From positions 1 through 33,058 of the forward strand of contig JAJRTB010000236.1 of assembly GCA_024278495.1 (NCBI GenBank): a stretch of DNA of 33,058 bases. The letters are read 5' to 3'. The notes beneath the pieces are model-generated. The model did no database searches and was not told the origin of the DNA. It saw nothing but the letters and a program-made list of their open reading frames with translations. Shown here piece after piece: positions 16,159 through 31,775 of this stretch. Source of the DNA: Deltaproteobacteria bacterium (GTDB lineage: Bacteria > Desulfobacterota > Desulfobulbia > Desulfobulbales > Desulfobulbaceae). The translations under genes and the position numbers were made by a program. How positions within the stretch are numbered: position 1 is the first letter of the stretch; every line of letters starts with the position of its first letter.

Positions 16159-16281
16159 AGTTGTGACGATTTTTGCCTGGCCGGCGCCATGACAGACTTT
16201 TTTTTGGCCCGACTTTGTTGAAAAATTATATCAAAAGCGTTGAAACCGTTGGCCTGGGCGAGAAAAAAGACATTTTTTCCT

Positions 16282-16310
16282 TTGACAAAGATGGGACTAT
16301 CGGATTAAAT
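16282..16310 (+). promoter_or_regulatory. Sigma-70-type promoter of the HU gene
   Basis: Perfect -35 TTGACA (16282-16287), 17-nt spacer, and -10 TTAAAT (16305-16310; 4 of 6 match to consensus). It lies 87 nt upstream of the HU start codon, leaving an approximately 80-nt leader. This is the best-looking housekeeping promoter in the window. Confidence 0.72.
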
Positions 16311-16396
16311 CCATTTCAAATTAGAGGCGAGTAATCAGGCCTTGCCTGGTAACCCCTGGAAGCCGCAAGGCGAATCAAAAAAAACGGGAGGGAAGT

Positions 16397-16672
16397 ATGA
16401 ACAAAAAGGAATTGGTTGAAGCAATGGCCAGTGCGGCTGATATCAGCAAGGCTGCGGCGGAAAAGGCGCTCAACGGCATGCTCATGGCCGTAACCAAGAC
16501 TCTGGCCAAGGGCGGCAAGGTAACCCTGGTTGGTTTTGGCACCTTTTCTGTTGTCAAGCGTGCCAAGCGTAAGGCAAAAAATCCCCGTACCGGCGAAATG
16601 ATCAATATCCCGGCCAAAAAAGTAGCCAAGTTCAAGCCGGGCAGCAAACTCGCCGAAGCCGTCAAGAAATAA
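16397..16672 (+). CDS. hup: HU-family histone-like DNA-binding protein
   Basis: 91-residue HU/IHF fold protein that bends and compacts DNA as a dimer. The N-terminus MNKKELVEAMA, the VTLVGFGTFSV turn and the beta-arm signature with NPRTGE and the INIPAKK stretch are standard HU. KVAKFKPGSKLAEAVKK forms the C-terminal helix. The pattern favours HU over IHF. It has a strong ribosome site (GGGAGG, about 7 nt upstream), its own TTGACA promoter and an intrinsic terminator, so it is monocistronic. Confidence 0.95.
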   Translation: MNKKELVEAMASAADISKAAAEKALNGMLMAVTKTLAKGGKVTLVGFGTFSVVKRAKRKAKNPRTGEMINIPAKKVAKFKPGSKLAEAVKK

Positions 16673-16696
16673 CATACCTCTTGCAGTGTGAAACAG

Positions 16697-16724
16697 CAGT
16701 CGGCTACACGGCCGGCTGTTTTTT
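16697..16724 (+). terminator. Rho-independent terminator of the HU gene
   Basis: Stem of 8 bp (CAGTCGGC, 16697-16704, pairing GCCGGCTG, 16711-16718, with one G-T pair), a 6-nt loop, and six T directly after (16719-16724). Located 24 nt after the HU stop codon. Confidence 0.85.
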
Positions 16725-16834
16725 ATTTGCGCGGCTTATTGTGCCCGCGTAGTCCATTGAGGTCGCCGCCTCCTTACGAGACGGGCGCTGACTGGAAATG
16801 GGCAGGCAGAAAACAGTGCTGTCAAAGATCTGTA

Positions 16835-17045
16835 TCCCTGAGCGTTCGCCCGTGGCGCAAATGAAAGTGACCGGGCCATGCGGCTATGGAAGGCTATGCC
16901 CCATGGTTTGATCACCTTTATATGGGCCGCGGGTGGGCGCTCTGACGGTTGGATCCGGGTGAGAGCCCGTCTGGTTGAATATGTGAACAGATATTTCACT
17001 TTTTCAATATGTTCCTTGCCAAAGACACAAATTTTCGTCACGGAT
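16835..17045 (-). repeat. Palindromic intergenic repeat, copy B (foldback element)
   Basis: Between 16835 and 16948 the sequence is one long imperfect palindrome with arms of about 55 nt. The left arm contains GAGCGTTCGCCCGTGGCGC, the right arm GCCGCGGGTGGGCGCTC, and the centre is near 16891 with CCATG/CATGG blocks facing each other. With the block at 17025-17045 it matches copy A at 4607-4713 in reverse order and orientation, including two exact 21-bp stretches. Copy B carries about 75 bp of extra DNA between the hairpin and the distal block. No open frame is apparent inside. It resembles a MITE or bacterial foldback/REP-like element. Confidence 0.72.
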
Positions 17046-17063
17046 TCAGAAAAGACAAAGAGT

Positions 17064-17140
17064 CGGGAAGTGGCTCAGTCTGGTAGAGCACAGCGTTCGG
17101 GACGCTGGGGTCGGAGGTTCGAATCCTCTCTTCCCGACCA
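17064..17140 (+). tRNA. tRNA-Pro (anticodon CGG)
   Basis: Cloverleaf read by eye. The acceptor stem CGGGAAG pairs CTTCCCG. The D-arm is GCTC...GAGC with AGTCTGGTA. The anticodon stem CAGCG/CGCTG has loop TTCGGGA, giving anticodon CGG. The T-arm is GGAGG TTCGAAT CCTCT-type. A terminal A plus encoded CCA is present. 77 nt including CCA. It marks the border between conserved housekeeping genes on the left and the CRISPR island on the right, a common place for island insertion. Confidence 0.95.
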
Positions 17141-17149
17141 TTGATCATA

Positions 17150-17189
17150 AAGGGATTTCAACCTGTCAGGTTGGGATCCTTTTTTTTTT
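17150..17189 (+). terminator. Rho-independent terminator after tRNA-Pro
   Basis: Hairpin with inner stem CAACCT/AGGTTG (17159-17164 with 17168-17173, 3-nt loop), extended outward by AAGGGAT against GGATCCTT with a mismatch, and followed by a run of ten T (17180-17189). It ends only 10 nt before the next gene's ATG. Confidence 0.85.
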
Positions 17190-17199
17190 GACCATTGCC

Positions 17200-17661
17200 A
17201 TGGGCGGAAAACGAAAAAAGAAGACTGCGCTCTCCTCTCTGAACCAGGCCCTCCGTCGCCCTGACCTGAGCATTCTTGGTGACGCGGTGAAATCCCTGCC
17301 GCCCGCCCAGTGGCGGAACAGGATGTTTTTCATGGGCGTCCCGGACACCGATCTGCGCCGCCATACGGACGGTGGTTTTCCCGCAACCCTGCGGCCGGAC
17401 AAGGATACCCATCCCCTCTTTGTGCTCTCGGCGCGGACGACCGGCCCCCTGGTTTGCCCCTGTACCTCCAGAAGGGGGAGCAAACGTTCCAGGTACATTC
17501 AAAAAGGATGTCGCCTGGAGATGAAAGGGCATGTCATGGACCGGGATTCCTATCTTGTCGAGCGCTACAGTTTTACCCTGCCTCTGGATGGACGTTTTTC
17601 CCGCAAGTTGTTGTTCATGGGGCTCGTGCCGGACACTTGTCTTCGGGATGGTGGCTCGTGA
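17200..17661 (+). CDS. Unknown protein, first gene of the sigma-factor module
   Basis: 153 residues, basic N-terminus (MGGKRKKK). I do not recognise the family. A central stretch (about 70-147) has the alternating hydrophobic pattern and spacing HPLFVLS...LVCPCTS...DSYLV...RKLLFMG that faintly recalls MazF/PemK beta-barrels; this is a low-confidence impression. Two similar short motifs occur, MFFMGVPDTDLR (43-54) and LLFMGLVPDTCLRD (137-150). Four cysteines lie in the second half. There is no ribosome site and the tRNA terminator ends 10 nt upstream, so the start is uncertain (a TTG at 17188 is also in frame). The stop overlaps the sigma gene start by GTGA, so the two are translationally coupled. 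Confidence 0.6.
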   Translation: MGGKRKKKTALSSLNQALRRPDLSILGDAVKSLPPAQWRNRMFFMGVPDTDLRRHTDGGFPATLRPDKDTHPLFVLSARTTGPLVCPCTSRRGSKRSRYIQKGCRLEMKGHVMDRDSYLVERYSFTLPLDGRFSRKLLFMGLVPDTCLRDGGS

Positions 17662-18413
17662 GGCCGGCTGATTTGGCAGCGAAAAGGCTGCGTGATCTGC
17701 TTCAGACCGAAACCGGCCTGCGCGCGGCCAGGGCTCTGGTGCGCAAAGAGTTGCGCAGACACGTTCTTGACGGGGGCTTTGAACGTTCCCTTTCACGTCG
17801 ACACGGGGACGATCCCGGGGGGGCAGCCGATGAGCTGGTTCAGGATTTTCTTCTGTTCGTGTTCGATGAATTTCTGCCCGCGCTTCCTGCGCATCCCGAT
17901 TTTGTCGCCGCGTTGCTCCAGGGCCGTGGTGAAACAGTCCTGCGCATGGCTGTGCGACGGTTTTTCTGGCGCCGGCAGGATGCGTTCAGGACAAAGGAAG
18001 CAGATCCCAGAGCGTATCTGCACAGGAGAATCCGTGATATTGTGACAGGCGGTGATGCCTTTGTGACCCGTAAACAGGGGGGGAACCTTTTTTTTACCCT
18101 GGCGGACCTGGCTGAACGCATGGACGGCGGTGCGTCTTTCCCGCCCCGGCAATACGCCGGCTGGCCTCCTCCCGCTTCATTGGATGGGGCGGCGGACAGG
18201 GTTTTCAGCGCCCGTTACCTGGCAGAAGCCGCAGGTTTTTTCTGCCGTGAGGCCGTGCAACGCGACATTTATGCCTGGGTGCCTGTGCGGGAGGTTGTCA
18301 GGTATCTCGCGACCCATATCCCCGGCCTGGACCGTCCGAAGCTCCGCGTCCTGAGTGAAAACGATGCGCGGGTCGATTCTGCTTTGTCCCCTGAAAAAAA
18401 TACGCCCTCTTGA
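17658..18413 (+). CDS. Sigma-70-like factor, N-terminal part (region 2); frameshifted
   Basis: 251 codons from a GTG that overlaps the previous stop. Residues 47-75 (GDDPGGAADELVQDFLLFVFDEFL) resemble sigma region 2.1-2.2, where ECF factors read DDLVQEVFL, and 117-130 (PRAYLHRRIRDIV) resembles region 2.3-2.4. The reading frame leaves homology after SPEK, at a run of seven A (18394-18400), and stops at 18413. The next frame (-1) continues with KYALLRERVSVD and a region-4-like helix-turn-helix. Adding one A would give a single protein of about 349 residues, much longer than a usual ECF factor, with an insertion of about 100 residues between regions 2 and 4. It is probably the transcription factor of this island. 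Confidence 0.6.
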   Translation: MRPADLAAKRLRDLLQTETGLRAARALVRKELRRHVLDGGFERSLSRRHGDDPGGAADELVQDFLLFVFDEFLPALPAHPDFVAALLQGRGETVLRMAVRRFFWRRQDAFRTKEADPRAYLHRRIRDIVTGGDAFVTRKQGGNLFFTLADLAERMDGGASFPPRQYAGWPPPASLDGAADRVFSARYLAEAAGFFCREAVQRDIYAWVPVREVVRYLATHIPGLDRPKLRVLSENDARVDSALSPEKNTPS

Positions 18414-18706
18414 GGGAGCGAGTGTCAGTGGATGCCCTGGCCGCCCAGTTTGCCGGGGGACTGGACCAGGCCAGCGGAAAAATTTTTCTCTGGCGCCTGG
18501 AGGAACCACCCCTGACTTTTCGGGAAATAGCTCGCGCGCTCGCTCTTCCGGAACACAAGGTGTACGCGACGCATCGACAGACCGTCAGGGCCATGCAGAG
18601 CTTTGTCGCGAATTGGCCCGGCCCCCCGCTTGCCGATCTGGACGGGGGCGTCGGGCTGTATTTTATCGAGGCGGTGCGGAAAATTTGTGAAAAAAATGTT
18701 CGTTGA
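18410..18706 (+). CDS. Sigma-70-like factor, C-terminal part (region 4 HTH); frameshifted continuation
   Basis: 98 codons in the -1 frame relative to the upstream part, opening with a TTG that overlaps the stop at 18411-18413. The segment RLEEPPLTFREIARALALPEH...THRQTVRAM resembles sigma region 4.2: an EIA helix, a turn and a recognition helix ending in an R-A-M/L pattern. The frame stays open leftward to just before the A7 run at 18394-18400, which supports a single original gene. Alternatives are that the TTG is a true internal start giving a two-subunit sigma factor, or that a slippage event joins the two. The TGA stop of this part forms the first bases of the TGACCGTA motif. Confidence 0.55.
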   Translation: MRERVSVDALAAQFAGGLDQASGKIFLWRLEEPPLTFREIARALALPEHKVYATHRQTVRAMQSFVANWPGPPLADLDGGVGLYFIEAVRKICEKNVR

Positions 18707-18721
18707 CCGTAAAAGAGGGTA
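18690..18721 (+). promoter_or_regulatory. Island promoter-like motif, site 1 (upstream of anti-sigma gene)
   Basis: A7 tract (18690-18696), 7 nt, TGACCGTA (18704-18711), then GAGGGTA (18715-18721). The same order recurs before both CRISPR operons at 22.0 and 27.75 kb. The anti-sigma ATG is 57 nt downstream of TGACCGTA. Part of the motif lies in the last codons of the sigma gene. Interpretation as the recognition site of the encoded sigma factor is inference. Confidence 0.6.
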
Positions 18722-18768
18722 GGGAAATACGATGAAACAGATATTGAACAGAAACGTTTTTCAGCGCC

Positions 18769-19089
18769 ATGGATGAGATTCAGCGCAAACTGAGCTGGCA
18801 GAATGCGTGGATCCTTCGGTGCTGCCCTCCGCCGCATATTCTTCATGGCAGGATGACCCGGGAACTCAGGGAACATCTCGGGATCTGCCCTGCCTGTGCC
18901 GCCGCTCGCGGGGAAGGAAGTCTTTTTGATCTTTCTCCTGTCAGGCCTGATTCTCCTCCCGCCGCACCGCTGCCCGGTGAACTCTGGTCTCTTTCTGGGG
19001 AACTTTCCGGCTGGGGACCCAAAAACGGTACTACCACGGGCCGGTCGTCCTGGTGGTTGACGTGGTTGATTCGGCAGCCGTTCAGGTAG
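18769..19089 (+). CDS. Zinc-finger anti-sigma-like protein, N-terminal part; frameshifted
   Basis: Begins MDEIQRKLSWQNAW and contains HLGICPAC (His at about 37, with the HxxxCxxC spacing), the zinc-binding anti-sigma (ZAS/zf-HC2-type) motif, right next to a sigma-like gene. A Pro-rich linker follows. After GWGPK (about 19020-19026) the frame turns into low-complexity Thr/Ser/Trp residues and stops at 19089, while the -1 frame reads RYYHGPVVLVVDVVD and runs on to 19856. One extra A in the five-A run at 19021-19025 would restore a 362-residue protein. Unlike most membrane anti-sigma factors, neither part has a membrane segment, so the restored product would be cytoplasmic. Confidence 0.58.
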   Translation: MDEIQRKLSWQNAWILRCCPPPHILHGRMTRELREHLGICPACAAARGEGSLFDLSPVRPDSPPAAPLPGELWSLSGELSGWGPKNGTTTGRSSWWLTWLIRQPFR

Positions 19090-19856
19090 TGCAGACCTTT
19101 GGTGACGATTTTTTTCTCGGCCCGGGGGATGTCTCTCTGGACAATAATGTATCCGGCTTCGCGGAATGCTGGAACCGGTATGTCCTGCGGAAAAGCGACC
19201 TGGAATTTGCCCTTGGCCGTGTTTCAGAGAAGCGCCTTGCCCGGATCCGACAGGAGCTGGACGGCGAATCCGGGGCCGACGCCGATATAGAGCCGGGTTC
19301 CCTGCTCTGGTTTTTCCGGCAGATGGAGGTGGAAACGGGATTTTATTTCGCGTCCGGTTCCGTGGCCGGCCTGCTGGAAACAGATCCTGCCGAGCCCGTG
19401 ATTGTCGCGCCGCAGACTCTTCATGACGACCTGAAGGTATTACCCCTTGTCCCCCCTGCCTCCCCGCAGGACATGTCCGTGGAAACTGTGCTGGCCCGCA
19501 CAGTTCCCGCGGACGAACTCCTGCCCATGGCGGCGGCCGGTGCGGAGCCGGCCGGTATACCTGTCTTGCTCTTTACAGTCCGCCAGGGGCGGATTGTCGG
19601 GGCGCGGGTAACGGGCGCCGACATAACGGTTCAGACCGGTGAAGCCGGCGTTCTGCATATCAGCGGCGTGTGCGGTTTTGCGGCCATGCCGGAAGACAGG
19701 TGGATTTTTCGCTGGCAAACGGATGCCTGGTCCGTCGCCCCCCTGCCGGGGCAGTACGGGTTTGAGGATGGAGTGTTCTGGGCCTCATTCCCGGTTGACG
19801 GCCTGAGGGATCCGGCGGAAGGAGAACTGGTTATCCGTGTCCTCGTTTCTTCCTGA
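19053..19856 (+). CDS. Anti-sigma-like protein, C-terminal part; frameshifted continuation
   Basis: The open frame is usable from about 19020; the first internal start codon is GTG 19053 (MVDVVDSAAVQVVQ). The sequence is mostly beta-rich and acidic with no membrane segment. A stretch such as VVQTFGDDFFLGPGDVSL near the start reads as a small folded domain, and the C-terminal ~70 residues (VLLFTVRQGRIVGARVTG onward) look like a beta-sandwich. No catalytic motif is recognised. Continuity with the zinc-finger part is argued from the abrupt loss of plausible sequence in the upstream frame and its resumption here. Its 3' end overlaps the protease gene start by 20 nt. Confidence 0.55.
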   Translation: MVDVVDSAAVQVVQTFGDDFFLGPGDVSLDNNVSGFAECWNRYVLRKSDLEFALGRVSEKRLARIRQELDGESGADADIEPGSLLWFFRQMEVETGFYFASGSVAGLLETDPAEPVIVAPQTLHDDLKVLPLVPPASPQDMSVETVLARTVPADELLPMAAAGAEPAGIPVLLFTVRQGRIVGARVTGADITVQTGEAGVLHISGVCGFAAMPEDRWIFRWQTDAWSVAPLPGQYGFEDGVFWASFPVDGLRDPAEGELVIRVLVSS

Positions 19857-21918
19857 ATCTCCGGATATGCACCCGCACTGGCGGCAGCTTGCCGTGCTTC
19901 TGCGCAGTTCTCCCGAACATGGCAGGCAGCTTTTGCGAACGCCGGCGCCCGGTTCCTTCCCTGATCAGGAAACCCTGGAAACTCTCATGGCAACGGCCCG
20001 TTGCGCGGGCCTGGATGCGCTTTTTCAAAAGCACCTGCTGTCTGGTCTTGTCCGCGCTCCCGGGGAGGAGCGGTTGAAGCTGAAGGCGCGGGTCGGGTCC
20101 CTTTGTTCCGGCTGCATTGATGAACTGGTCCCGGCATCCCTGCTTAGCCGGCCCTGGATATCCGTGCCGGTTCCTGTCTCGCGTGCGGGATGGGCCGGTG
20201 TCGTCTGGTTTTGTCTCTGCCGGACAGGAGAGGAAACCGATTTCTCACCAGCGGGCAGGCCCGTTCCCGATGACCAGACCCTGAAAGCGATGCGCCTGGC
20301 GCTGGATGTTGGCGATCCCCGGAGCGGTCATCATCTCTGGTCACTGCAGGCGGACGAAGAGGTTCCGGTTACCGGCGGATCCCTGGGGCTTCCCGTGTTT
20401 CTGGGGGCGCGTTTTCTGGCGGAGAATGCCGCCTGGCCGTCAGGTCTGTTTGCAAGCGGCGTGATTGGTCGGGACGGCGTGATTGGCGCTGTGGCCAACC
20501 TGCCGGAAAAATACCGGTACGCGCGGGCCCGGCTTTTTCTCGCGCCTGCTGAAAACGGTGCGGAAATCATAAAACAAAAGAACGTGATTGCCTGCGCTGA
20601 AGCCGAAGACGCCTGGTTTGCGGCGGAACTCCTGGCAGGCGGCATCCAGCCGGGCCGGATCTCCCGCTACCAGTCCTGCAGGCACGATCCCGGAGAACTT
20701 CTTGCCCGGTTCCACTGTCTGCCGCTCCCCTTTCTTTTGAACAAAGAGACCTGTTTGCTGCTTGAACAGGTGCGGCAGCAACCTGTTGTCCATCTGAAAC
20801 AACTTGCGGAATGTCTGCGCAGGTGCGGGTTTGACCCTGCTCGCGGTTCCCTTGCGGCCGGATTGTTTTCACCCGGTGAGATCGGGGCTCTGGTCCGGGC
20901 TCCCGGGAATCCCCCTGATTTTGTCTTTGCCCTTTTTGACTGGTGCCTCGCGGTGATGGCTTTTGCCGATCATCAGGGGCGAACCGGCGAGTCCGCCGCC
21001 TGGGGCAGGGTAGCCGCCCGGATGATGGACATGGTTGAGCCGGGTGAGCGTGCCGAGCTGGCCAACCGCCTCATGGTTTCGGGCCGGTTCAACACCTATG
21101 ACTTCCGGCCGGAACTGCCCGACCTGTTCCGCCGTGCCCTGGAGCTGGAAGAGAGACATTACGAAGATTACCCGCACAGCAGTCATACCCTGGGCGCCAT
21201 GTACGGCACCCTGGCGCAGAACTGCGGTTTCTGCGGCCCGGACTTTCTGGAACAACTGCTTGGCGCTGCCGACAGGTCCCAAAAAGCCTTTGGCCGGAAA
21301 AACTGCCGCGAGGCAGGACGGCTCGATAACTACCGGATTTACGGCCTGCTCGATGCCGGCCGGACAGACGAGGCGGCTTCCCTTCTGTCCGGCTATTTCG
21401 GCCTGGATGGAGAACGCGATGCAGACGCCTTGTGGCGAACCGCCTGCGCCATGGCCGCTGACGGGACGACAGAGGACGTGTTCAGGGCGGCGCTCGGGTT
21501 TCGTTTCCTTGCCGATACCGGGTTTCGGGTCTCCGGTCCCCGGAACCTGCCGGTGCACTATGCCCTGGAGGGTGCCGGCCATCCGTGGCAGCTCTTGTCG
21601 CGCAATCTTGGCCGCATCCTCCTGGCCTCCGGCCGGCACAGCGAAGCGGAGCGGATGTTTCGCCGCAGTGTCGGGATCTGCCTGGCAGGCGGTGAGACAA
21701 TGCGGGCCATGGCGCTTTGTTCCCTGGCCGAACTGCACGCGGCAGGCATGGCAGGTGACGCCGATTATGAGCAGGCCGCCGCAACTGTCCGATGGATAGC
21801 GGAGGACTCACATCTGAACAGGGAGCATTTCAGCCGTCTGTACGGGGTGCCGGGCCGGGAGATCCCCGGCCTGGTCTTCCGGTGCGGAAATGAACTTTTT
21901 CCCTTCAGCTACCGATAA
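19837..21918 (+). CDS. Lon-type Ser-Lys protease domain protein with C-terminal helical repeats
   Basis: 693 residues from GTG 19837 (ATG 19867 is an alternative; an AAGGAG lies about 12 nt upstream of the GTG). Residues 160-270 resemble the proteolytic domain of Lon: a Ser in VTGGSLGLPV (Ser182), then SGVIGRDGVIGAVANLPEKYRYA (Lys225), followed by LFLAPAENGAE. The Ser-Lys spacing of 43 residues matches Lon. There is no Walker A or B, so it is not an AAA+ Lon. The first ~150 residues are unassigned. Residues ~290-693 are helical and TPR-like towards the end (AERMFRRSVGICLAGGETMRAMALCSLAEL). In context, the anti-sigma protein is the obvious candidate substrate. I see no SAVED or CARF motif, unlike CalpL. 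Confidence 0.65.
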   Translation: MSSFLPESPDMHPHWRQLAVLLRSSPEHGRQLLRTPAPGSFPDQETLETLMATARCAGLDALFQKHLLSGLVRAPGEERLKLKARVGSLCSGCIDELVPASLLSRPWISVPVPVSRAGWAGVVWFCLCRTGEETDFSPAGRPVPDDQTLKAMRLALDVGDPRSGHHLWSLQADEEVPVTGGSLGLPVFLGARFLAENAAWPSGLFASGVIGRDGVIGAVANLPEKYRYARARLFLAPAENGAEIIKQKNVIACAEAEDAWFAAELLAGGIQPGRISRYQSCRHDPGELLARFHCLPLPFLLNKETCLLLEQVRQQPVVHLKQLAECLRRCGFDPARGSLAAGLFSPGEIGALVRAPGNPPDFVFALFDWCLAVMAFADHQGRTGESAAWGRVAARMMDMVEPGERAELANRLMVSGRFNTYDFRPELPDLFRRALELEERHYEDYPHSSHTLGAMYGTLAQNCGFCGPDFLEQLLGAADRSQKAFGRKNCREAGRLDNYRIYGLLDAGRTDEAASLLSGYFGLDGERDADALWRTACAMAADGTTEDVFRAALGFRFLADTGFRVSGPRNLPVHYALEGAGHPWQLLSRNLGRILLASGRHSEAERMFRRSVGICLAGGETMRAMALCSLAELHAAGMAGDADYEQAAATVRWIAEDSHLNREHFSRLYGVPGREIPGLVFRCGNELFPFSYR

Positions 21919-21989
21919 CCTGAACCAGTGCGCATTCACGCGCAGCGCGGGAGGAGCTGACCGGGCGGGTGCTAAAGTTCATTGTTTTG

Positions 21990-22024
21990 AAAAAAAATAC
22001 ATTTCTGACCGTATAGAGAGGGTA
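21990..22024 (+). promoter_or_regulatory. Island promoter-like motif, site 2 (ancillary CRISPR operon)
   Basis: A8 tract (21990-21997), 8 nt, TGACCGTA (22006-22013), 4 nt, GAGGGTA (22018-22024). It lies 35 nt before the ATG of the small acidic protein that starts the csx20-csx1-cas6-cad1-nudix run. It is the closest match to site 1, sharing both the TGACCGTA and GAGGGTA blocks. Confidence 0.62.
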
Positions 22025-22048
22025 AGAAGATGAACAATGGAGAAAACA

Positions 22049-22324
22049 ATGGATCAGGATGATTTTTTTGATGATGATTGCATGGAAGAACCCCCGGATG
22101 AATCAGGCGAAGATGTTTATGACGACGATTTATCTGCGGGCGAATTCATTGAACCGGAACATGAACTTGATGAATTCGAGACAGGGGAGAAAACCGCGCA
22201 ACCTGACGCGGTACCTCCAGAAACAGGACCGGACAACGTTGATTTCGGCGCCGCCTTCATAGTCGGTTCAATGATAGCAGGCAACATGTATGGGCAGCGC
22301 AGGAGAACAAAGAAAAATGGCTGA
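22049..22324 (+). CDS. Small acidic protein with C-terminal hydrophobic tail, paralogue 1
   Basis: 91 residues. It begins MDQDDFFDDDCMEEPP, is extremely acidic (Asp/Glu-rich) through about residue 60, and ends with a Gly/Ala/Ile-rich hydrophobic stretch (FGAAFIVGSMIAGNMYG) and a basic tail RRRTKK. It could be a tail-anchored membrane protein, but the segment is short. ATG 22049 is chosen because GGAG sits 8 nt upstream and the paralogue at 27.8 kb starts the same way (MDEDNLFDDDD); an in-frame ATG at 22037 would overlap that ribosome site. The last 8 nt overlap csx20. I know of no named family. It is the first gene behind motif site 2. Confidence 0.7.
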   Translation: MDQDDFFDDDCMEEPPDESGEDVYDDDLSAGEFIEPEHELDEFETGEKTAQPDAVPPETGPDNVDFGAAFIVGSMIAGNMYGQRRRTKKNG

Positions 22325-22706
22325 CATGTTTTTGCTCTTTAACCACACCCTCACCCCGGTTCAGGAGGAGCAGGCCCGCCGGGAACTCGGAGTTAGGCAG
22401 ATTATCGAACCACCGGGGGATCTCCGCCGTATCTGGGCCGCTGTCCCGCCACGGGAGGAAGCCATCCGCCCGCACCTTCTCCCGGTCATAACCTGGCTTG
22501 ATGCCCAGGCGGTTGCGGGTGATTTTGTCCTCATCCAGGGTGACTTCGGCGCCTGTTTCCTGCTGGCAGACCATGCCCTGAACCAGGGATATATCCCTGT
22601 CTATTCCACCACGGAGCGCCGGGCAGTGGAAGAACAGCTCGCTGACGGCGGAATACGGCTGACCCACACCTTCCGGCACGTCCGGTTCAGAATCTATGGC
22701 AGGTAA
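22317..22706 (+). CDS. csx20: Csx20, putative cyclic-oligoadenylate ring nuclease
   Basis: 129-residue CRISPR accessory protein. MFLLFNHTLTPVQEEQARRELGV at the start, GDFVLIQGDFGACFLLA in the middle and IPVYSTTERRAVEE then FRHVRFRIYG at the end fit the Csx20 family as I recall it. Csx20 has been grouped with ring nucleases that degrade cyclic tetra-adenylate and thereby switch off type III effectors; activity here is inferred from family. ATG 22317 overlaps the preceding gene by 8 nt and starts the MADMFLLF family N-terminus. It is followed 9 nt later by csx1, so the probable antidote is co-expressed with the CARF effectors. Confidence 0.8.
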   Translation: MADMFLLFNHTLTPVQEEQARRELGVRQIIEPPGDLRRIWAAVPPREEAIRPHLLPVITWLDAQAVAGDFVLIQGDFGACFLLADHALNQGYIPVYSTTERRAVEEQLADGGIRLTHTFRHVRFRIYGR

Positions 22707-22715
22707 GGAGGAATT

Positions 22716-24005
22716 ATGCGGCGCGTATATCTGAGTTTTCTTGGGCTTGGCCAGTATGAAGAAACTGTCTATGAATTGAGTGCTAAACGTTCTGATCCGA
22801 CCCGGTTTGTCCAGGTGGCAGAGCAGATGCTCCTGGGTTGGGACCGGTTCGATATCCTCTATATTGTCGCCACCAGGGCCTCGAAGGAAAGACATTATGA
22901 CGCCCTGAGCAGGGAACTGGAACCCTGCCGCGGTGAGGTTCACCTGATCGAACTGGACGAGGATATGAGCAATGCCGGCCAGTGGCAATGGTTCGAGCGG
23001 ATCTTTTCTGTTGTCCGCGACGAAGATGAGCTTTGTATCGACCTGACCCACGGCTACCGGTCCATCCCGGTGGTCTTTTCCGCGGCCATCAATTTTCTTC
23101 AGAAAACAAAACAGATCCGCCTGGCCCATGTCTTCTACGGGGCCTTTGAACAAGACCGGCAACTGGCGCCGCTGGTGGACATGCGCTCCTTCTTCGACAT
23201 CAACACCTGGGCCGACGCGGTGACACGGCTGACACGTGACGCCGATGCCCGCGGCCTGGCCGAGGCTGCCGAAAGCACCAACAGACACCAGTTTGCCGAA
23301 TTGTCGGACAGGGACTTTGCCGATGCCTGCACGCAGGTGACCCGAAGAATCATCAATGTCGATGTCAACAATGTCGCGGATGATATTTCCAGGCTGATGA
23401 CTTGTATCGAACAGCTCGACAGCGCCAGCTCTCCGGCTGCCAAAATACTTCTGGAAATGGTCGCAAACAAGTTTTCTCTTCCCGGGGCCGCAAATGTCAC
23501 CAACCCGGACAGAACCGGCTATACCCTCGGGTATTACAAATTTCAGCTCAACCTGGCCGGACTGCTCCTCGAGCATGGCCTGCTCATGCAGGCATTTACG
23601 GTTATGCGCGAATGGCTGAGCTCGCTCGTCATGCTCCATTTTGAGCAAGAGGAAAGCCTGAATGCCAAAAAACGGCGGAAACGCGTCGATCATTACGGCG
23701 GCGTCTTTTTCAGGATGCTGCAGAATGTCGAGGAATCCTGGAATTTCAAGGGGTCGGAAGAACAGCGGCAACGGGTGGAGCCCTTGTACCGCAGGCTGAA
23801 GGAGGCCGGAGTGATCGAGCCCCTGATCAGCACTGATCCGTTACTGGCCAGTGAGTTGTCCAGTTACAGAAACGGCTTTGACCATGCCTGGCTTGGTAAG
23901 GCCGGAATGAAAGACGATCTGGAGGAGAAAGGCAGGTATTTCCACGAGACTCTTCAGGAAGTCCTGCTGAGGCTGGAAGGGTCTGACCGGTACGGAATAA
24001 TGTAA
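22716..24005 (+). CDS. csx1: Csx1-family CARF-HEPN ribonuclease (DxTHG motif)
   Basis: 429 residues. An N-terminal CARF domain (about 1-200, RVYLSFLGLGQYEETVY) carries the DxTHG signature at Asp109-Gly113 (DLTHGYRSIP) of the TM1812/Csx1 group and would bind cyclic oligoadenylate. The C-terminal helical domain has the HEPN motif RNGFDH (Arg385-x4-His390), the RNase active site formed in the dimer. Such proteins cut RNA non-specifically when the type III complex signals infection. It has a very strong ribosome site (AAGGAGG) overlapping the csx20 stop. It takes the role played by Csm6 in many III-A loci; no separate csm6 is seen. Confidence 0.9.
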   Translation: MRRVYLSFLGLGQYEETVYELSAKRSDPTRFVQVAEQMLLGWDRFDILYIVATRASKERHYDALSRELEPCRGEVHLIELDEDMSNAGQWQWFERIFSVVRDEDELCIDLTHGYRSIPVVFSAAINFLQKTKQIRLAHVFYGAFEQDRQLAPLVDMRSFFDINTWADAVTRLTRDADARGLAEAAESTNRHQFAELSDRDFADACTQVTRRIINVDVNNVADDISRLMTCIEQLDSASSPAAKILLEMVANKFSLPGAANVTNPDRTGYTLGYYKFQLNLAGLLLEHGLLMQAFTVMREWLSSLVMLHFEQEESLNAKKRRKRVDHYGGVFFRMLQNVEESWNFKGSEEQRQRVEPLYRRLKEAGVIEPLISTDPLLASELSSYRNGFDHAWLGKAGMKDDLEEKGRYFHETLQEVLLRLEGSDRYGIM

Positions 24006-24134
24006 TTCTCCGGCACCATTGTCAAATAGCTATGCACATTGACGATAGTATCGCCAGGCGAGAAGGGCGGGAAAGAACTACAGCCGGAGCAGGTGGCTCT
24101 GGGACCATTTACCGATAACCGACTGAAGAGAACC

Positions 24135-25100
24135 ATGACCATCAAAGCACAGACATACACCTTCCACTGCCGGTTTACCTCCGGTGCACGCTTGCCCGGC
24201 TATCTCGGCTCCACCCTGCGCGGGGCCCTGGGCTGGGCCCTGAAAAAGACGAACTGCGCCCTCAGACGGCAGCAGTGCAGCGACTGCCTGCTGCGGGAGC
24301 AGTGCACCTATGCCTGGATCTTCGAGACCGAGCGCTACCGGGCCAGGGACGGCCGCAGGGTCAATGCCCGGCCGCATCCCTTTGTCCTGCAGCCGGAAGA
24401 GGTCGTGGCCGGGGAAAAGAACATCGGTGATCCGCTTGTTTTTTCCCTGCTTCTCCTGGATCGGGCCAACGACCTGCTGCCGCAGATCGTTTACGCGGTC
24501 CGCCTCATGGGTGAATCCGGCATCGGCGCCGGTCGCAGGCACGGCATGGGCAGGTTTGTGCTGCAGCAGATTGTCACCACAGGCCGGAACATCTACTTAG
24601 CCGACAACGAGGTGCTGCGCCAGCCGGAGAAAATCGAACGGCTCCGGCTGGCTGACCCCGGCGATGGCGCTATATCAAGGCTGCAGGTTGACCTGCTGAC
24701 CCCGCTGCGCCTCAAGCAGAGCAACAGGATGGAGCTGAACCTGCCCTTTCACGTGCTCATCCGCGCCTGCCTGCGCCGCATCTCCTCCCTGGAGGACGCC
24801 TACGGAGCCGGCGAGCCTGATCTTGACTACCGGGGCCTGGCGAGCAGGGCAGGAGAGGTGCGGGAAAAAACAAAAAACATCCGCTGGCAGAAACTGCTCC
24901 GCTGGTCCAGCCGGCAGCGGCAGAATACCTCCCTGAGCGGCCTGGCCGGTTCCATCGGTTACCAGGGAGAACTTCGGGAATTCCTCCCGATCCTGCGCTA
25001 TGCCGAACAGGTCAACATCGGCAAGCAGACCGTGTTCGGCCTGGGAAAATTCCGACTGAGCCTCCATGGAGAAGGCAAAACCTGCCGGGGAGATAACTGA
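24135..25100 (+). CDS. cas6: Cas6 pre-crRNA processing endoribonuclease
   Basis: 321-residue RAMP protein that cuts the repeat in pre-crRNA. The C-terminal half has the Cas6-C pattern GLAGSIGYQGELREFLPILRYAEQVNIGKQTVFGLGKF, with the Gly-rich loop near the end. The N-terminus has RGALGWALKK and a Cys cluster C41-x6-C48-x2-C51-x5-C57, which could bind zinc and occurs in one Cas6 subfamily. Catalytic His cannot be assigned with confidence. A 129-nt gap separates it from csx1 and contains an 11-bp palindrome CGATAGTATCG (24043-24053) and a TTGTCA at 24019, so a second promoter here is possible. cad1 follows after 2 nt. Confidence 0.88.
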   Translation: MTIKAQTYTFHCRFTSGARLPGYLGSTLRGALGWALKKTNCALRRQQCSDCLLREQCTYAWIFETERYRARDGRRVNARPHPFVLQPEEVVAGEKNIGDPLVFSLLLLDRANDLLPQIVYAVRLMGESGIGAGRRHGMGRFVLQQIVTTGRNIYLADNEVLRQPEKIERLRLADPGDGAISRLQVDLLTPLRLKQSNRMELNLPFHVLIRACLRRISSLEDAYGAGEPDLDYRGLASRAGEVREKTKNIRWQKLLRWSSRQRQNTSLSGLAGSIGYQGELREFLPILRYAEQVNIGKQTVFGLGKFRLSLHGEGKTCRGDN

Positions 25101-25102
25101 AA

Positions 25103-27082
25103 ATGCAGAAAAACAGGCGGCCCGGCCCGGAACCGGTGGTTCTTCTCGCGGCCCTGGGCAATGTGGACCTGATCCTCGAATACCTGGATTTTTTCAATGG
25201 CGGCGCCCGCTTTTCCTATACCGGGGAAGCCGAACAGGTTCGCCGGGCGTTTTCCGGCTCCGGCATTGCCGCGGTGCACCTGATCTGTACCGCCGACAGC
25301 GGGAAAAAGCTGAAGGAACTGGAGGGCAAGGTTGTCGCCGACTATCCGGAGGTTGCCATCGAGCCGTTGTTCCTGCGATGTACGGACATCGAAACAGCCG
25401 CAGACGAACAGGAGATGAAGGAAGAAGTCTATGCCCTGGTCGAAAAGCTGGCCGGCTCCACCGGCAGGCTCATCATTTCCTCCGGCGGCCGGAAAACCAT
25501 GACCAACCGGCTGATCGAGGCCGGTCTCCTGCACGGCTGCGAGGGATACCTGGCCATCACCGATTCCCGGCAGACAGACCGGGACAAGCCAATAAGGGAC
25601 CAGACGAATACGTTCAACATCCTGTGGATTCCGGCCCGGCAATTCTATCGGGAACGGTGCGACGCCATACCCCTCAGGGATGGTATCGGAGACAACTTCC
25701 GTTCGCTTGCGATTCTTCCGCAAAGCGTGCTGAAAAAACTTCAGGAAGAACGGATCGGCGTGGACCGGGAACAATCCGACAGGGAACTGGTCTGGCTCAG
25801 AAAGCTGCCCAAGGCGGACCTGCACTGTCATCTCGGCGGCGCCTTTGACCTGCCTCTGCTCAGGAAGCTGGCACGCCTGATGGTCGAGGATTGTAGGCTT
25901 GACACCTCTGCCGTGAAAAAAATCGTCGAGGAAAAAACCGGTGTCTCTCTGCCGCGGCTGACTTCCGGACACCTGCGGAGCCTGCGACCGGAAGTCCGTC
26001 ACTGTCTCGACAATCTGGAAGAGCTGCTCGATCCGGTTCCCCCGGACGGCGGTATTCCGGCCCTGGTTGCCCAGCTCACGGACGAGCAGATCGAGGATCT
26101 CTCCTTTGACAGCAGGAAGATGCGTGACTGCCGCGCCAAGGACCTGGCCTGGTACATGACCTGCGGCGACCTGGGCGGCTCGGCCCTGCTGCAGACAGAG
26201 CGATGTCTGCGGGCAGCCATGTCCTGGCTTCTGCAGCGCTGTTACGACGACGGAGTCCGCTACCTCGAGGTCCGCTGCTCGCCGGACAACTACTGTCGCC
26301 GGGACCTGGACATCAGGGACGTGCTGAACATCCTTATCGACGAGGGCCGCAGTTTCATGCGGCGCCATGACGACTTCACGGTCAACCTGCTCGTCATGGC
26401 CACCCGTCACAAATCCCGGGCCGCCATGGCCAGCCATGTGAGCGCAGCGGTCTGTTTTGCCGGGAATACGCATCAGGGCTCCTCCAGGACACCCCGGGTT
26501 GTCGGCTTCGACCTTGCCGGCCAGGAAAAGGACCATGATCCTGTTCAGTTCCGGGATCTGTTCATGCCGCTTCATCACCATTTCATCAATATCACCATCC
26601 ATGCCGGCGAAATGGAGGATGACGACAGGATCTGGCAGGCCCTCTACGTCCTGCACGCCAAACGGATCGGCCATGGCCTCAAACTGATCAACAACAGGAA
26701 AATGATGCATTACATCCGCGACTACGGAACCGCCATCGAGATGTGTCCATCGTCCAATGTCCAGACCAACAGTTTCCATCTTCCCGGTGATGCATCTCCA
26801 CGTGACCGCTATCCTCTCAAAGAATACCTGCGTCACGGAATAGCGGTGACGATCAATACGGACAATCCCGGCATATCGGCTACCCACCTGTCCAGGGAGT
26901 ACCTGGTCGCGGCCCGCCTCAGCGAGAATGGCCTGTCACGCTGGGACATCCTCAAACTGGTACGCAATGGTTTCCGGGCCGCTTTTCTTCCCAAAGACGA
27001 GAAAGACCGGCTCCTCAAAAAGGTGGACAGACAGATATTCGACATCATTCTCAACAACTACTTTCAGGAGGATCGATCCTGA
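25103..27082 (+). CDS. cad1: Cad1, CARF-adenosine deaminase fusion effector
   Basis: 659 residues with two domains. The N-terminal CARF domain (about 10-185) has the ligand-binding loop ISSGGRKTM (125-133). The C-terminal adenosine deaminase-type amidohydrolase domain (about 235-645) has all metal and catalytic motifs: HCHLGG (His241, His243), ITIHAGEMED (His500, catalytic Glu503), RIGHGLKL (His524), CPSSNVQT, and INTDNPGIS (Asp587). Cad1 enzymes, recently characterised in type III CRISPR systems, are switched on by cyclic oligoadenylate and convert ATP to ITP, arresting growth of infected cells. It starts 2 nt after cas6 and overlaps the Nudix gene by 1 nt, so the three are one transcription unit. 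Confidence 0.9.
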   Translation: MQKNRRPGPEPVVLLAALGNVDLILEYLDFFNGGARFSYTGEAEQVRRAFSGSGIAAVHLICTADSGKKLKELEGKVVADYPEVAIEPLFLRCTDIETAADEQEMKEEVYALVEKLAGSTGRLIISSGGRKTMTNRLIEAGLLHGCEGYLAITDSRQTDRDKPIRDQTNTFNILWIPARQFYRERCDAIPLRDGIGDNFRSLAILPQSVLKKLQEERIGVDREQSDRELVWLRKLPKADLHCHLGGAFDLPLLRKLARLMVEDCRLDTSAVKKIVEEKTGVSLPRLTSGHLRSLRPEVRHCLDNLEELLDPVPPDGGIPALVAQLTDEQIEDLSFDSRKMRDCRAKDLAWYMTCGDLGGSALLQTERCLRAAMSWLLQRCYDDGVRYLEVRCSPDNYCRRDLDIRDVLNILIDEGRSFMRRHDDFTVNLLVMATRHKSRAAMASHVSAAVCFAGNTHQGSSRTPRVVGFDLAGQEKDHDPVQFRDLFMPLHHHFINITIHAGEMEDDDRIWQALYVLHAKRIGHGLKLINNRKMMHYIRDYGTAIEMCPSSNVQTNSFHLPGDASPRDRYPLKEYLRHGIAVTINTDNPGISATHLSREYLVAARLSENGLSRWDILKLVRNGFRAAFLPKDEKDRLLKKVDRQIFDIILNNYFQEDRS

Positions 27083-27711: not shown

Positions 27712-27730
27712 AATTTCCAGAAAAAAAACT

Positions 27731-27770: not shown

Positions 27771-27815
27771 GAAAAAACATACCCGGAGCACTGCCAGGAA
27801 AAAAAGGAGCGAACA

Positions 27816-27998: not shown

Positions 27999-28020
27999 AA
28001 AAACATTACGGAGATCACTT

Positions 28021-30594
28021 ATGGACCAGACAGTTATGAAAATAGCCCTTGCCGGCCTGATGCATGATGTCGGCAAGTTTGCCCAGGGAAGCATGGAGGT
28101 GTCTCCGCAATATGTCAATGATAATGCGGGACAGTATCAGCCTTTTTACAACAAACGCCATACCCATGTTCATGCACTCTACACAGCGGCCTTCATCGAG
28201 CAGTTTGGTGAGAAGATGCCCCGCTGTCTCAACGAACCTGGCTGGGGCGAAGGAGACAGTTTCGTCAACCTGGCGGCCGGCCACCACAGGCCGAAAACTG
28301 CAATGCAGGAATGTATTACCCAGGCGGATTGCCTGAGCGCAGGACTTGATCGGGCTGAATTTTCCGACCAGACGAATATCCCGTTTACGCAGTTTCGTTC
28401 CACCAGGCTGCTCTCGGTTCTTGAAGCTCTGGCCGTTGACGGTGACCCGCGGCAGCAGCAATTTGCGCAGTCTGACAGCTACAAAACCGCCTATGCACTT
28501 GCGCCTCTTTCGGCGACTTCTGCCTTTCCCGAACCAAGAAAAAAAATCAGCAGGCAAGAGGCCGTTAAGGAGTACCAGCAATTATTTGACGGGTTTATCG
28601 TACAACTTGCGGACCTGCCCCACAGGGAGCAACCGGAAATTTGGAGCCAGCATTTTGACAGTCTGCTTGCCTGTTATACCTCACATATTCCGGCGGCGAG
28701 AGTCGGGGGCGTTATTCCGGATGTCTCGCTGTACGACCACTGCCGGACAACGGCGGCCCTGGCGGTTCCCCTGTATATCTATCACAGGGAGACAGGTACT
28801 CTTGCCACAAAGGCTGTTCAGGACACCCGTCCTGAAAAATTTCTCCTGGTGTCAGGAGATTTTTACGGCATCCAGGACTTTGTTTTTTCAGCCGGTGGCG
28901 AGCAGCAGCGATTACGGGCCAAGCTCCTCCGGGGCCGGTCATTTGCGGTGTCCCTGTTCAGCGAGCTGGCGGCGGAGTCGTTGTGCCGGGCGTTGGATCT
29001 TCCCTTCACCGCCGTTTTTCTCAATGCCGCGGGTAAATTTCACCTGCTGGCCGCCAATACGGCCAACGCCCGAACGATTATCGACGAGACCGCCGAAAAA
29101 CTGAACGACTGGCTGTTCAGGATTTCTTACGGTCAGGCAAGCCTGGGAATAACTGCCACGCCGGCATCAGCGGCCAGATTCTGCCAGGGAGAATTTTCCC
29201 GGTTGTGGGATGAACATCTCCGGGCCATGGATCGCCGGAAATATCAGCGGATGCATCCTGGACGATACGGGGTCGTGGAGTCGTTTCTCAACTCCTTTAA
29301 CAACGATCTTGACAAGCCCCTCTGTCCTTTCTGCGGCAAGAGACCTTCCGTGCGAAAAGCTGAAAACAATGACTGGATTGACCGGCAGGGCAGTAGTTGC
29401 GCCATCTGCCGCGACCACATAATGCTTGGCGCCAACCTGGTCAAGGGCAGGAACCTGGCAATCTTTGATGGTGATGTACAGGCCCGGGAAAACGAACTCC
29501 TGCTGGAGCCCTTCTTTGACCGTTTCCAGGTGCGGTTCATGGAAGAGAAAGAGGTACCGGACGACGACGCGCTGGTAAAATTCTGCTGTCTTAACGTAAA
29601 TGAGGACGGTTCAATACCTGCGGCCGGGACAACCCGCCTGCTAAACGGTTATGTCCCGGTGTACTCGGAGAGTGTGCTGAAAAAACGCGCTGTCCTGGAT
29701 GTGCTGGAAAAAGAAGAAGATACCGTAGATCCCCGGGAACTCGTTGGCAACAGGGTTCCCCTGACATTCAACGCTCTTGCTGCCCTGGCCAAAAAGGATG
29801 GCCGGGGAACTGCGGCGCTTGGCGTCCTGAAAGCCGATGTCGATCATCTCGGCATGTTCATGTCCTGCGGTATGCCAAGAGAGCGATTTACCATATCGCG
29901 TATGGCAACACTTTCCCGGCGGCTGGACCAGTTTTTTACCCTGTACCTTCCGTATCTTCTTGGTTCCTGTGAAGAGTTCAACACAGTGTACACCGTGTTT
30001 GCCGGTGGTGACGATCTCTTCCTGATCGGCCCATGGAGCACCATGGCAGCCCTGGCCCGGAAACTCAGAAGGGACTGGAGTCGGTATGTCAGCGGCAACG
30101 ACCAGGACGGAGGCCTGACCTTTTCCGCAGGGATTACTCTGCACAAGACCCATGAACCGGTGGACAAACTGGCCGAAGCCGCGGAAGAAGCCCTTAAGCA
30201 GGCCAAGGAAAGCGGTCGCAACCGTATCTCCATGTTCGGGGAAACCGTGACCTGGGCAAAATTTGAAACCCTGCGTGAAAAGCAGCAGGCCATGGCGGGC
30301 TGGGTGGATCGGGAACTTATCTCAAAGGTCACGCTCTACCGCTTCAACGCCTTTATCGACATGGCAGGCAAGGCCGGGCGGATAACCCGCGCCGGCCGGG
30401 CCGTGTACATGCGTGACATGGAATGTTTGAAATGGCCGGCCCTGCTCAGGTACAGCCTGGAGCGGAATATCAGGAAAAAGGGCGCGGAGAGAGACGCGGC
30501 CATGCGGGAGGTTGTGGTGGTGAAAAACTGGCTGGAAGAATACGGCTCCGCGCTGAAGATAGCGCTTTGGAGCCAACTCTATGAACAACGATAA
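28021..30594 (+). CDS. cas10: Cas10/Csm1, large subunit of type III-A complex
   Basis: 857 residues. The N-terminal HD nuclease domain has LMHDVGKF (His15-Asp16) and, further on, AGHHRPK. A zinc ribbon is formed by Cys435/Cys438 and Cys460/Cys463 (CPFC and CAIC). The cyclase palm domain carries the GGDD motif at 662-665 (FAGGDDLFLIG). All active residues are intact, so target-RNA-activated ssDNA cleavage and synthesis of cyclic oligoadenylates from ATP are both expected. The C-terminal D4 helical domain ends at a TAA followed 14 nt later by csm2. GGAG precedes the ATG. This protein would produce the signal for Csx1 and Cad1. Confidence 0.95.
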   Translation: MDQTVMKIALAGLMHDVGKFAQGSMEVSPQYVNDNAGQYQPFYNKRHTHVHALYTAAFIEQFGEKMPRCLNEPGWGEGDSFVNLAAGHHRPKTAMQECITQADCLSAGLDRAEFSDQTNIPFTQFRSTRLLSVLEALAVDGDPRQQQFAQSDSYKTAYALAPLSATSAFPEPRKKISRQEAVKEYQQLFDGFIVQLADLPHREQPEIWSQHFDSLLACYTSHIPAARVGGVIPDVSLYDHCRTTAALAVPLYIYHRETGTLATKAVQDTRPEKFLLVSGDFYGIQDFVFSAGGEQQRLRAKLLRGRSFAVSLFSELAAESLCRALDLPFTAVFLNAAGKFHLLAANTANARTIIDETAEKLNDWLFRISYGQASLGITATPASAARFCQGEFSRLWDEHLRAMDRRKYQRMHPGRYGVVESFLNSFNNDLDKPLCPFCGKRPSVRKAENNDWIDRQGSSCAICRDHIMLGANLVKGRNLAIFDGDVQARENELLLEPFFDRFQVRFMEEKEVPDDDALVKFCCLNVNEDGSIPAAGTTRLLNGYVPVYSESVLKKRAVLDVLEKEEDTVDPRELVGNRVPLTFNALAALAKKDGRGTAALGVLKADVDHLGMFMSCGMPRERFTISRMATLSRRLDQFFTLYLPYLLGSCEEFNTVYTVFAGGDDLFLIGPWSTMAALARKLRRDWSRYVSGNDQDGGLTFSAGITLHKTHEPVDKLAEAAEEALKQAKESGRNRISMFGETVTWAKFETLREKQQAMAGWVDRELISKVTLYRFNAFIDMAGKAGRITRAGRAVYMRDMECLKWPALLRYSLERNIRKKGAERDAAMREVVVVKNWLEEYGSALKIALWSQLYEQR

Positions 30595-30608: not shown

Positions 30609-31046
30609 ATGGCTACAGTGACACTTTGGAAAAACAGGGACAAGAGAGAGGTCGATCCCTATCTCTTCTCGAAAACCGCTGATCAGTTGGCAAAAAAAAT
30701 TCATGAGGACGGTCTTGAAACATATTGGGACAAAAAAAATAACTGCAAAAAAAGCAGGGAAAAAAATAATTCAAGCACCCAGCTGCGCCGCTTCTTCGAC
30801 GAGTTGACCAGGCTCAACATCAAGGCGCAAAGTGGTGACGAGCCATGGGAGCTGATCATGCCCCAGGTCCACATGATGGTGGCCAAGGTCGCCTATGCCA
30901 AGGGGCGGGGCCTGGTCACGGATTCTTTTGTCAGCCTGTTTGGCGACACCATCCGCGACCAGGTGCAGGACAGGGACGATCTGTACACCTTTACCAGTTT
31001 TTTTGAATCCTTTATCGGCTTTTACAAATCCTATCGCAAGAATTAA
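30609..31046 (+). CDS. csm2: Csm2, small subunit of type III-A complex
   Basis: 145-residue, mainly helical, basic protein between cas10 and csm3, the invariant csm2 position. The C-terminal half (STQLRRFFDELTRLN, PQVHMMVAKVAYAKGRG, FTSFFESFIGFYKSYRK) fits Csm2 helices that line the crRNA-target duplex. The N-terminal ~55 residues are Lys/Asn-rich and less conserved. Its presence, rather than Cmr5, fixes the subtype as III-A (or the related III-D is excluded by Csm2/Csm5). Confidence 0.9.
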   Translation: MATVTLWKNRDKREVDPYLFSKTADQLAKKIHEDGLETYWDKKNNCKKSREKNNSSTQLRRFFDELTRLNIKAQSGDEPWELIMPQVHMMVAKVAYAKGRGLVTDSFVSLFGDTIRDQVQDRDDLYTFTSFFESFIGFYKSYRKN

Positions 31047-31063
31047 GAGAAGAGGTGACTTCG

Positions 31064-31765
31064 ATGAAATTGAAAGCAATCAGACAGATCACAGGCCGGA
31101 TTACCCTGCTCAGCGGCCTGCATATCGGGGCCGGAGACACGGAAATGCACATTGGCGGCACTGACAACACTGTGGTCCGCCATCCGCACACCAGGTTGCC
31201 CTATATCCCCGGATCATCCCTCAAGGGCAAGGTCCGGGCCCTGCTGGAAATGCGCTCCGGCTGCATGGCCGGGACCGAAGGCAGGGCGCTGCGGTTTACC
31301 CATCTGGAAAAATTCCATGGCCGGCAGTTAGAGGAAGCCAGGAAAATCTGCGCCCTGTTCGGCACCAGTGGGGCGGATGGCGAAGACGCCCGGGCATTCG
31401 GGCCGACCAGGGTCTCTTTTGCCGACTGCAGCCTCACCCCGGAATGGGAGGCAAAGGCCAGGGACGTTGCCCTGACCGAGATCAAGGCCGAAACCGCCAT
31501 TGACCGGATTTCCGGCACAGCTCTCGGGAAGTCTTTACGCCAGACCGAACGGGTGGTGGCCGGTGTTGCATTCGCCTTTTTCATCGCTATCAAGGAAATG
31601 GAAGGCGACGAGGATAAAGACCTTACCGGGCTGCTTCTCGAAGGCTTGAAAATGCTTGAACTGGATGCCCTGGGCGGAAGCGGTTCCAGGGGATATGGCC
31701 GAATTGCCTTTGCCTTTGATGATGCAACCATCCAGCAGCAGTTTGATGCGATCTCCTTTTCCTGA
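31064..31765 (+). CDS. csm3: Csm3, backbone RAMP subunit with target-RNA nuclease site
   Basis: 233 residues. Csm3 copies form the filament along the crRNA and cut target RNA every 6 nt. It has the typical N-terminus RITLLSGLHIGAGDTEMHIGGTDNTVV with the putative catalytic Asp34, then PYIPGSSLKGKVRALLE (the RAMP SSLKG loop), and a C-terminal Gly-rich GGSGSRGYGRI. ATG 31064 is chosen because GAGGTGA lies 6 nt upstream; a GTG at 31055 overlaps this ribosome site. It follows csm2 by 17 nt. Confidence 0.94.
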   Translation: MKLKAIRQITGRITLLSGLHIGAGDTEMHIGGTDNTVVRHPHTRLPYIPGSSLKGKVRALLEMRSGCMAGTEGRALRFTHLEKFHGRQLEEARKICALFGTSGADGEDARAFGPTRVSFADCSLTPEWEAKARDVALTEIKAETAIDRISGTALGKSLRQTERVVAGVAFAFFIAIKEMEGDEDKDLTGLLLEGLKMLELDALGGSGSRGYGRIAFAFDDATIQQQFDAISFS

Positions 31766-31775
31766 GGCCGTAACC

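Follow-up and report, generated by a model that had tools for sequence, protein, structure and literature searches.

A sigma-like, anti-sigma-like and Lon-TPR gene cassette beside a type III-A CRISPR locus, starting behind a tRNA-Pro gene in a Desulfobulbaceae bacterium

Two described systems come closest to the locus analysed here, and both are taken as the accessible parts of their published accounts present them. CalpL/CalpT/CalpS of Sulfurihydrogenibium comprises a SAVED-Lon protease, an anti-sigma factor and an ECF sigma factor (PMC11417357, PMC11229360). The CASP system of type III-E comprises Cas7-11, the TPR-CHAT protein Csx29, Csx30 and CASP-sigma, and CASP-sigma motifs within its own locus suggest autoregulation (PMC10028731). 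The window, that is, the whole stretch of DNA that was analysed, is an entire contig (C184; 33,058 b) of a draft genome (G000) of 306 contigs and 2.55 Mb, and holds a cassette of comparable content upstream of CRISPR genes.

A candidate sigma cassette and its type III-A neighbours

The cassette genes, the first of which we call P1, are these:

17200..17661, + strand: P1, first cassette gene, uncharacterised protein
17658..18413, + strand: sigma-like gene, N-terminal frame, in GTGA overlap with the P1 stop
18410..18706, + strand: sigma-like gene, C-terminal frame (region 4), columns 272-364 of the 367-column sigma profile
18769..19089, + strand: zinc-finger anti-sigma-like gene, N-terminal frame, weak zf-HC2 match (0.014), profile columns 3-93 of 372
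19053..19856, + strand: remainder of the anti-sigma-like gene, profile columns 90-368 of 372, by alignment
19837..21918, + strand: Lon (S16) protease domain with a C-terminal TPR-like helical region, matching Lon structures at 5.4e-8

Searches of PDB and Pfam gave P1 nothing better than chance, and those of NCBIfam and PADLOC were likewise uninformative. Its stop codon overlaps the sigma-like start, as an NTGA overlap does in 12 of 13 loci, and the two genes may be translationally coupled by this means. For the sigma-like gene, several matches point the same way: the frame at 18410..18706 resembles Sigma70_r4 of Pfam (0.034, a weak match), the family profile reaches region 4 of SigF among known structures at E 0.0058 and an ECF sigma factor at 0.39, and Pfam sees region 4 in two and region 2 in one of nine family members, all below cut-off. 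A structural model of modest confidence (mean pLDDT 70.0) has sigma-RNAP or sigma/anti-sigma entries as 22 of its first 23 fold matches, none at E <=0.001. The anti-sigma-like protein shows an invariant HxxxCxxC in all eight members; its zf-HC2 match is weak and its profile ranks RsiW (E 0.8) after two unrelated proteins, so that its putative role is deduced from gene position. Both assignments thus combine weak sequence matches with gene order, weak but consistent in the case of sigma.

The Lon-TPR protein has a Ser-Lys dyad, S182 and K225 being invariant in 10 of 10 members. Its C-terminal region is all-helical in a model that is likewise of modest confidence (mean pLDDT 66.5), and the first 50 of 1005 fold matches are all helical-repeat or Lon chains; CalpL is absent from these 50, and no match reaches E <=0.001. 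SAVED was not found among the 14 Pfam families tested on the 10 members. The genes that follow are:

22290..22706, + strand: Csx20 (ring nuclease family), NCBIfam CAS_Csx20 9e-42
22716..24005, + strand: Csx1-like CARF-HEPN effector, TIGR02221 2e-28, PADLOC CARF_HEPN 2.9e-119
24039..25100, + strand: Cas6, Pfam 1.9e-17, PADLOC 1e-84
25103..27082, + strand: CARF-adenosine deaminase effector, PADLOC CARF_ADA 9.4e-137, Pfam A_deaminase 2.2e-53
28021..30594, + strand: Cas10/Csm1 with HD and GGDD motifs, Pfam palm2 5.5e-32, PADLOC Cas10 5e-118, GGDD in the translation
30609..32807, + strand: Csm2, RAMP/Csm3-like and Csm4-like genes, Pfam Csm2_III-A 1.1e-15 and RAMPs 3.6e-19, the Csm4 label being given by gene position and phmmer relatives

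The Cas10, Csm2 and RAMP genes of this type III-A locus are separate. The CARF-adenosine deaminase effector is presumably the protein named Cad1. Two further open frames have no Pfam match: a small acidic one of 95 aa just 5' of csx20 (22037-22324) and one of 209 aa that precedes cas10, downstream of the CARF-deaminase gene (27082-27711). In the interval from Lon to csx20 (21700-22400), where a promoter of the cas genes might lie, the scan recognised no plus-strand site.

As far as the accessible accounts allow a comparison, the locus resembles CalpL/CalpT/CalpS in placing a Lon-family protease gene together with anti-sigma-like and sigma-like genes next to a type III locus whose Cas10 has the cyclase motif GGDD, and CalpL (7qda) is also reached by our Lon profile (A3), at E 0.009. 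It differs in that the Lon protein carries TPR-like C-terminal helices in place of a detected SAVED domain, that the additional gene P1 is putatively coupled to sigma, that the anti-sigma-like protein is larger and has a zinc-finger motif, and that the neighbours are Csx20 and a CARF-HEPN effector. With type III-E CASP, as described in the same partial sources, it shares a CRISPR-linked protease joined to TPR repeats and a sigma-like factor with its putative inhibitor; however, the protease is Lon (Ser-Lys) where CASP has CHAT, and the effector is a multi-subunit Cas10-Csm complex where CASP has Cas7-11. Since it shows neither the SAVED domain of CalpL nor the CHAT protease and Cas7-11 of CASP, we regard the cassette as a variant of these systems and not as a member of either. 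The open literature, to which subscription journals mostly do not belong, gave among the matches listed no account of a Lon-TPR protein with sigma and anti-sigma factors beside a type III-A locus.

The junction between tRNA-Pro and P1

Upstream of the cassette, the window contains:

16397..16672, + strand: HU-family DNA-binding protein gene, Pfam Bac_DNA_binding 8.8e-32, with tRNA-Pro the left synteny marker in congeners
16695..16720, + strand: intrinsic-terminator-like hairpin 3' of the HU gene, from the terminator scan
16827..17051, strand not given: MITE-like repeat of ~225 bp, ~12 nt 5' of the tRNA
17064..17140, + strand: tRNA-Pro(CGG) with encoded CCA, ARAGORN, Rfam concurring at 17064-17137; border of the putatively inserted block
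17149..17189, + strand: strong intrinsic terminator, 16-pair hairpin and T run

A preliminary description of this DNA had placed the P1 start 10 nt beyond the tRNA-Pro terminator, with no room for a promoter, and both coordinates and scans bear it out. The gap between the tRNA end and ATG 17200 is 59 nt, 41 of which belong to the terminator, and only 10 nt remain after the T run; the gap is indeed mostly terminator, as had been said. The stem-loop (17149-17183) has 16 pairs and a 3-nt loop and runs into a T tract whose last base is 17189. Folding of 17141-17200 gives -19.3 kcal/mol (z -3.13), a value reached by 2 of 200 shuffles. No such hairpin lies directly 3' of tRNA-Pro in any of the four congeners scanned. 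Neither 16150-17320 nor 16660-18900 contains a plus-strand sigma70-like site recognised by the promoter scan, and the best partial match in the 100 nt 5' of ATG 17200 (7/12) is as good or better in 204 of 300 shuffles. That the scan can detect such sites in the genus of the window follows from a perfect TTGACA-18-TATAAT that it finds in a congener (G006, L104 3958-3987) between tRNA-Pro and a cytochrome gene.

The start codon itself appears to be correct. The P1 frame is open from 16987 and a TTG at 17188 falls within the T run; the suspicion that the first start might be wrong is countered by the homologue in G009, which begins MGKQR where the window has MGGKR. A ribosome-binding site is not visible there, as had also been pointed out, no SD-like tetramer being found upstream of ATG 17200; however, the same holds for 7 of the 12 P1 starts examined, the window counted in, so that the missing site is nothing special.

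In relatives, the region 5' of P1 offers a promoter-like element. TATGAT occurs 34-36 nt 5' of P1 in four of five loci of one related genus, and this register in at least three loci was never obtained in 20,000 shuffles that preserved base composition alone; the four loci are not independent, because L053 and L098 share similar upstream DNA. The register is not found in the other eight loci of the 13-locus promoter scan, which leaves out L011 and L017 (little or no upstream DNA) as well as L012 and L016. Promoter matches upstream of P1 in these 13 loci are mostly at chance level; L052 alone stood out (10/12, reached in 4 of 300 shuffles). In the window there is no counterpart to TATGAT, and the matching position lies inside the terminator hairpin. 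The insertion would thus have left a tRNA terminator-like hairpin where relatives have their promoter-like element, and from this position of the hairpin we conclude that P1 is probably without a promoter of its own in the window, having lost one or never had it.

The HU hairpin has counterparts of similar kind in G001, G004 and G006. As for the MITE-like repeat, the block 16830-17049 is aligned in all 20 copies fetched, most with complementary ends, and the genome holds at least 46 matches, counting the window and partial inverted matches (40 of 129 candidates were scored); among the matches listed, the same DNA search shows none in six congeners.

Gene order in relatives and the site without the block

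Genomic islands associated with tRNAs are foreign blocks whose start abuts the 3' end of a tRNA that is left intact. The left side of the junction is shared with congeners: HU and tRNA-Pro are found together, as in the window, in G001, G002, G004 and G006, and where compared the left-hand genes are a homocysteine-biosynthesis family gene, the next gene, HU and tRNA-Pro. The right side differs. The block starts at the tRNA 3' end and is missing there in three congeners. Such genomes, with the same tRNA-Pro and no island, were what the preliminary description had suggested looking for, and G002 gives the clearest case, with tRNA-Pro directly before TSCPD, cobO and ileS, within ~115 nt. A cytochrome gene and an Msr gene lie between tRNA-Pro and TSCPD in G004 and G006, and the G001 contig stops ~1 kb 3' of tRNA-Pro. 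In the genome of the window, TSCPD and ileS are on another contig (C173), where cobO was not found beside them, and this contig breaks off within TSCPD, at the end expected to point towards the tRNA. The CRISPR block is therefore most likely located between tRNA-Pro and TSCPD, a placement inferred across two unjoined contigs, C184 and C173, which is also why the right border of the block is unseen.

A repeat of the tRNA 3' end, the att site that the preliminary description had suggested looking for, is absent from the assembled genome: at <=3 mismatches only the tRNA itself and a second tRNA-Pro are recovered, within the window only tRNA-Pro itself, and long repeats in 16600-33058 include nothing att-like. 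The expected location falls in the unassembled gap at the far border. The second tRNA-Pro has anticodon GGG and is 78% identical to that of the window (L117 1033-1109, contig C237 of the same genome). Scans with Pfam and NCBIfam found no integrase among the window genes. The locus thus resembles a tRNA-associated island in its position at the tRNA 3' end and in the congener site without the block; it differs in that neither att repeat nor integrase was found in the window and genome scans, the right border being unassembled. Among the three options that had been put forward for the missing promoter, an island that entered at the tRNA 3' end and lost its native upstream DNA is the best fit, because the left synteny is shared, the 3' side differs, the site in G002 is empty and TATGAT has no counterpart. 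These comparisons make insertion of the block at the tRNA-Pro 3' side the most likely history.

Profile A2 detects P1 in 13 of the 257 class-set genomes; in the family set, 10 of 73 have it, and a Lon relative is present in 10 of 96 genomes. Carriers of cassette relatives include Syntrophobacteraceae drafts and Desulfobulbus sp. Tol-SR, whose copy (L010) is intact. The order P1, sigma, anti-sigma, Lon recurs in 11 loci beyond the window, two of them incomplete: in L015 the contig ends within Lon, and in L101 the anti-sigma gene is split. At 15 of 17 P1 loci, counting L011, which has no upstream DNA, and L017, which has ~0.5 kb, the available DNA contains no tRNA. This count treats G158:C22 as the same locus as L010, the two contigs being of equal length (26,785), and does not include a match on G015:C40 without profile support (E 4.3e-4, 34% identity, internal stops), three Lon relatives without P1 (L055, L057, L058) or two contigs with a partial cassette lacking P1 (L056, L059). 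The gene order is thus kept where there is no tRNA, an observation that the preliminary description had itself named as refuting its proposal; the tRNA does not belong to the system, and dependence of the module on read-through from the tRNA promoter is not supported.

The two loci with a tRNA are the window and G074. In the latter, a tRNA-Met (L052 4966-5042) is followed by a terminator-like hairpin and then by P1, 243 nt downstream of the tRNA; the tRNA-Met 3' end has no duplicate in the 19-kb stretch and only weak or partial matches genome-wide. Two different tRNAs at the same cassette edge fit insertion beside tRNAs.

Broken reading frames and the putative working of the switch

The sigma-like and anti-sigma-like genes of the window are each split across two frames; the break lies in an A run, near 18394 in the former and near 19021 (five A) in the latter, and both changes are in the same sense. 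Most relatives are intact. P1 and Lon are open and full length. We consider it rather probable that a block carrying P1, the sigma-like, zinc-finger anti-sigma-like and Lon-TPR genes was inserted with its left edge at 17064-17200, that P1 is promoter-less there, and that this copy yields hardly any functional sigma switch, if any, the downstream CRISPR genes remaining intact. With a terminator replacing the start signal and two reading frames broken, the copy is probably faint or switched off.

An assembly artefact is the most serious competitor, though we think it rather unlikely: the cassette would be intact and working, the frame changes would be errors and a non-sigma70 promoter would lie in or just past the terminator. 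Since the assembly is a metagenome-type draft in 306 contigs, both changes could indeed be assembly or sequencing errors; both breaks fall in A runs, and P1 and Lon are full length with invariant catalytic residues. However, 71 runs of at least five equal bases, three of them of eight, occur in 14 other open genes of the window (14,766 bp in all) without a break; five other loci also have broken cassettes; and the 10 nt between T run and ATG leave such a promoter little space. That the same A runs serve a regulatory device, programmed -1 frameshifting or transcript slippage decoding both genes, seems very improbable. The common sense of the two changes and their location in A runs would suit it, but sigma is in a single frame at 12 of 17 P1 loci, the anti-sigma site in the relatives displayed has no A run comparable to that of the window, and the second site of the window has only five A.

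Between these two in probability, and in our view improbable, is weak expression of the cassette through transcription that runs past the tRNA-Pro terminator, or through HU/tRNA transcripts that extend into it, with sigma amplifying its own operon. The shared strand, the 59-nt gap and the failure to find an own promoter are in its favour, as is the autoregulation suggested for CASP-sigma, to the extent that the accessible account of type III-E bears on it (PMC10028731). Some read-through of the terminator is possible. However, the idea that low constitutive read-through feeds a self-amplifying sigma lacks support because the sigma and anti-sigma frames are changed here, and the gene order persists without the tRNA. 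The tRNA promoter itself is not recognised in the scan, with the MITE-like repeat immediately upstream, and a terminator-like hairpin within 300 nt 5' of P1 in 6 of 15 loci (L011 and L017 left out), as against 3 of 75 shuffles, looks like insulation.

How would intact copies work? In CalpL/CalpT/CalpS it is cA4 that triggers cleavage of the anti-sigma factor. The cassette analysed here travels with a type III-A CRISPR locus, and by analogy with CalpL/CalpT/CalpS and CASP, type III activation may switch on the Lon protease, which would cut the anti-sigma factor and so free sigma for a transcriptional response. We tentatively propose a third kind of CRISPR-driven switch, in which a Lon-TPR protein lacking a cyclic-nucleotide sensor of its own, activated when it touches the type III-A complex or via P1, would free sigma; the cassette would be mobile among sites at tRNAs and elsewhere, with the sigma part disarmed again and again (in 6 of 17 loci) and the CRISPR genes kept. 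If this is true, a protease-sigma switch without the SAVED sensor of CalpL accompanies the type III-A loci of this order of bacteria, and how infection is sensed therefore becomes a testable question. The junction also illustrates that a promoter-less start behind a tRNA may reflect the edge of an insertion and a module in decay, and not a regulatory design.

The six damaged cassettes are those of the window, G031, G237, G154 and two in G008; errors are possible in the others too, since all genomes are drafts. In G237 the anti-sigma gene is split, and G154 retains only a piece of P1. The single genome G008 contains two CRISPR loci (L016 and L017), both with cassette deletions: one is without the sigma C-terminus and the anti-sigma N-terminus, the other without most of the cassette, and both retain csx20, cas6 and cas10.
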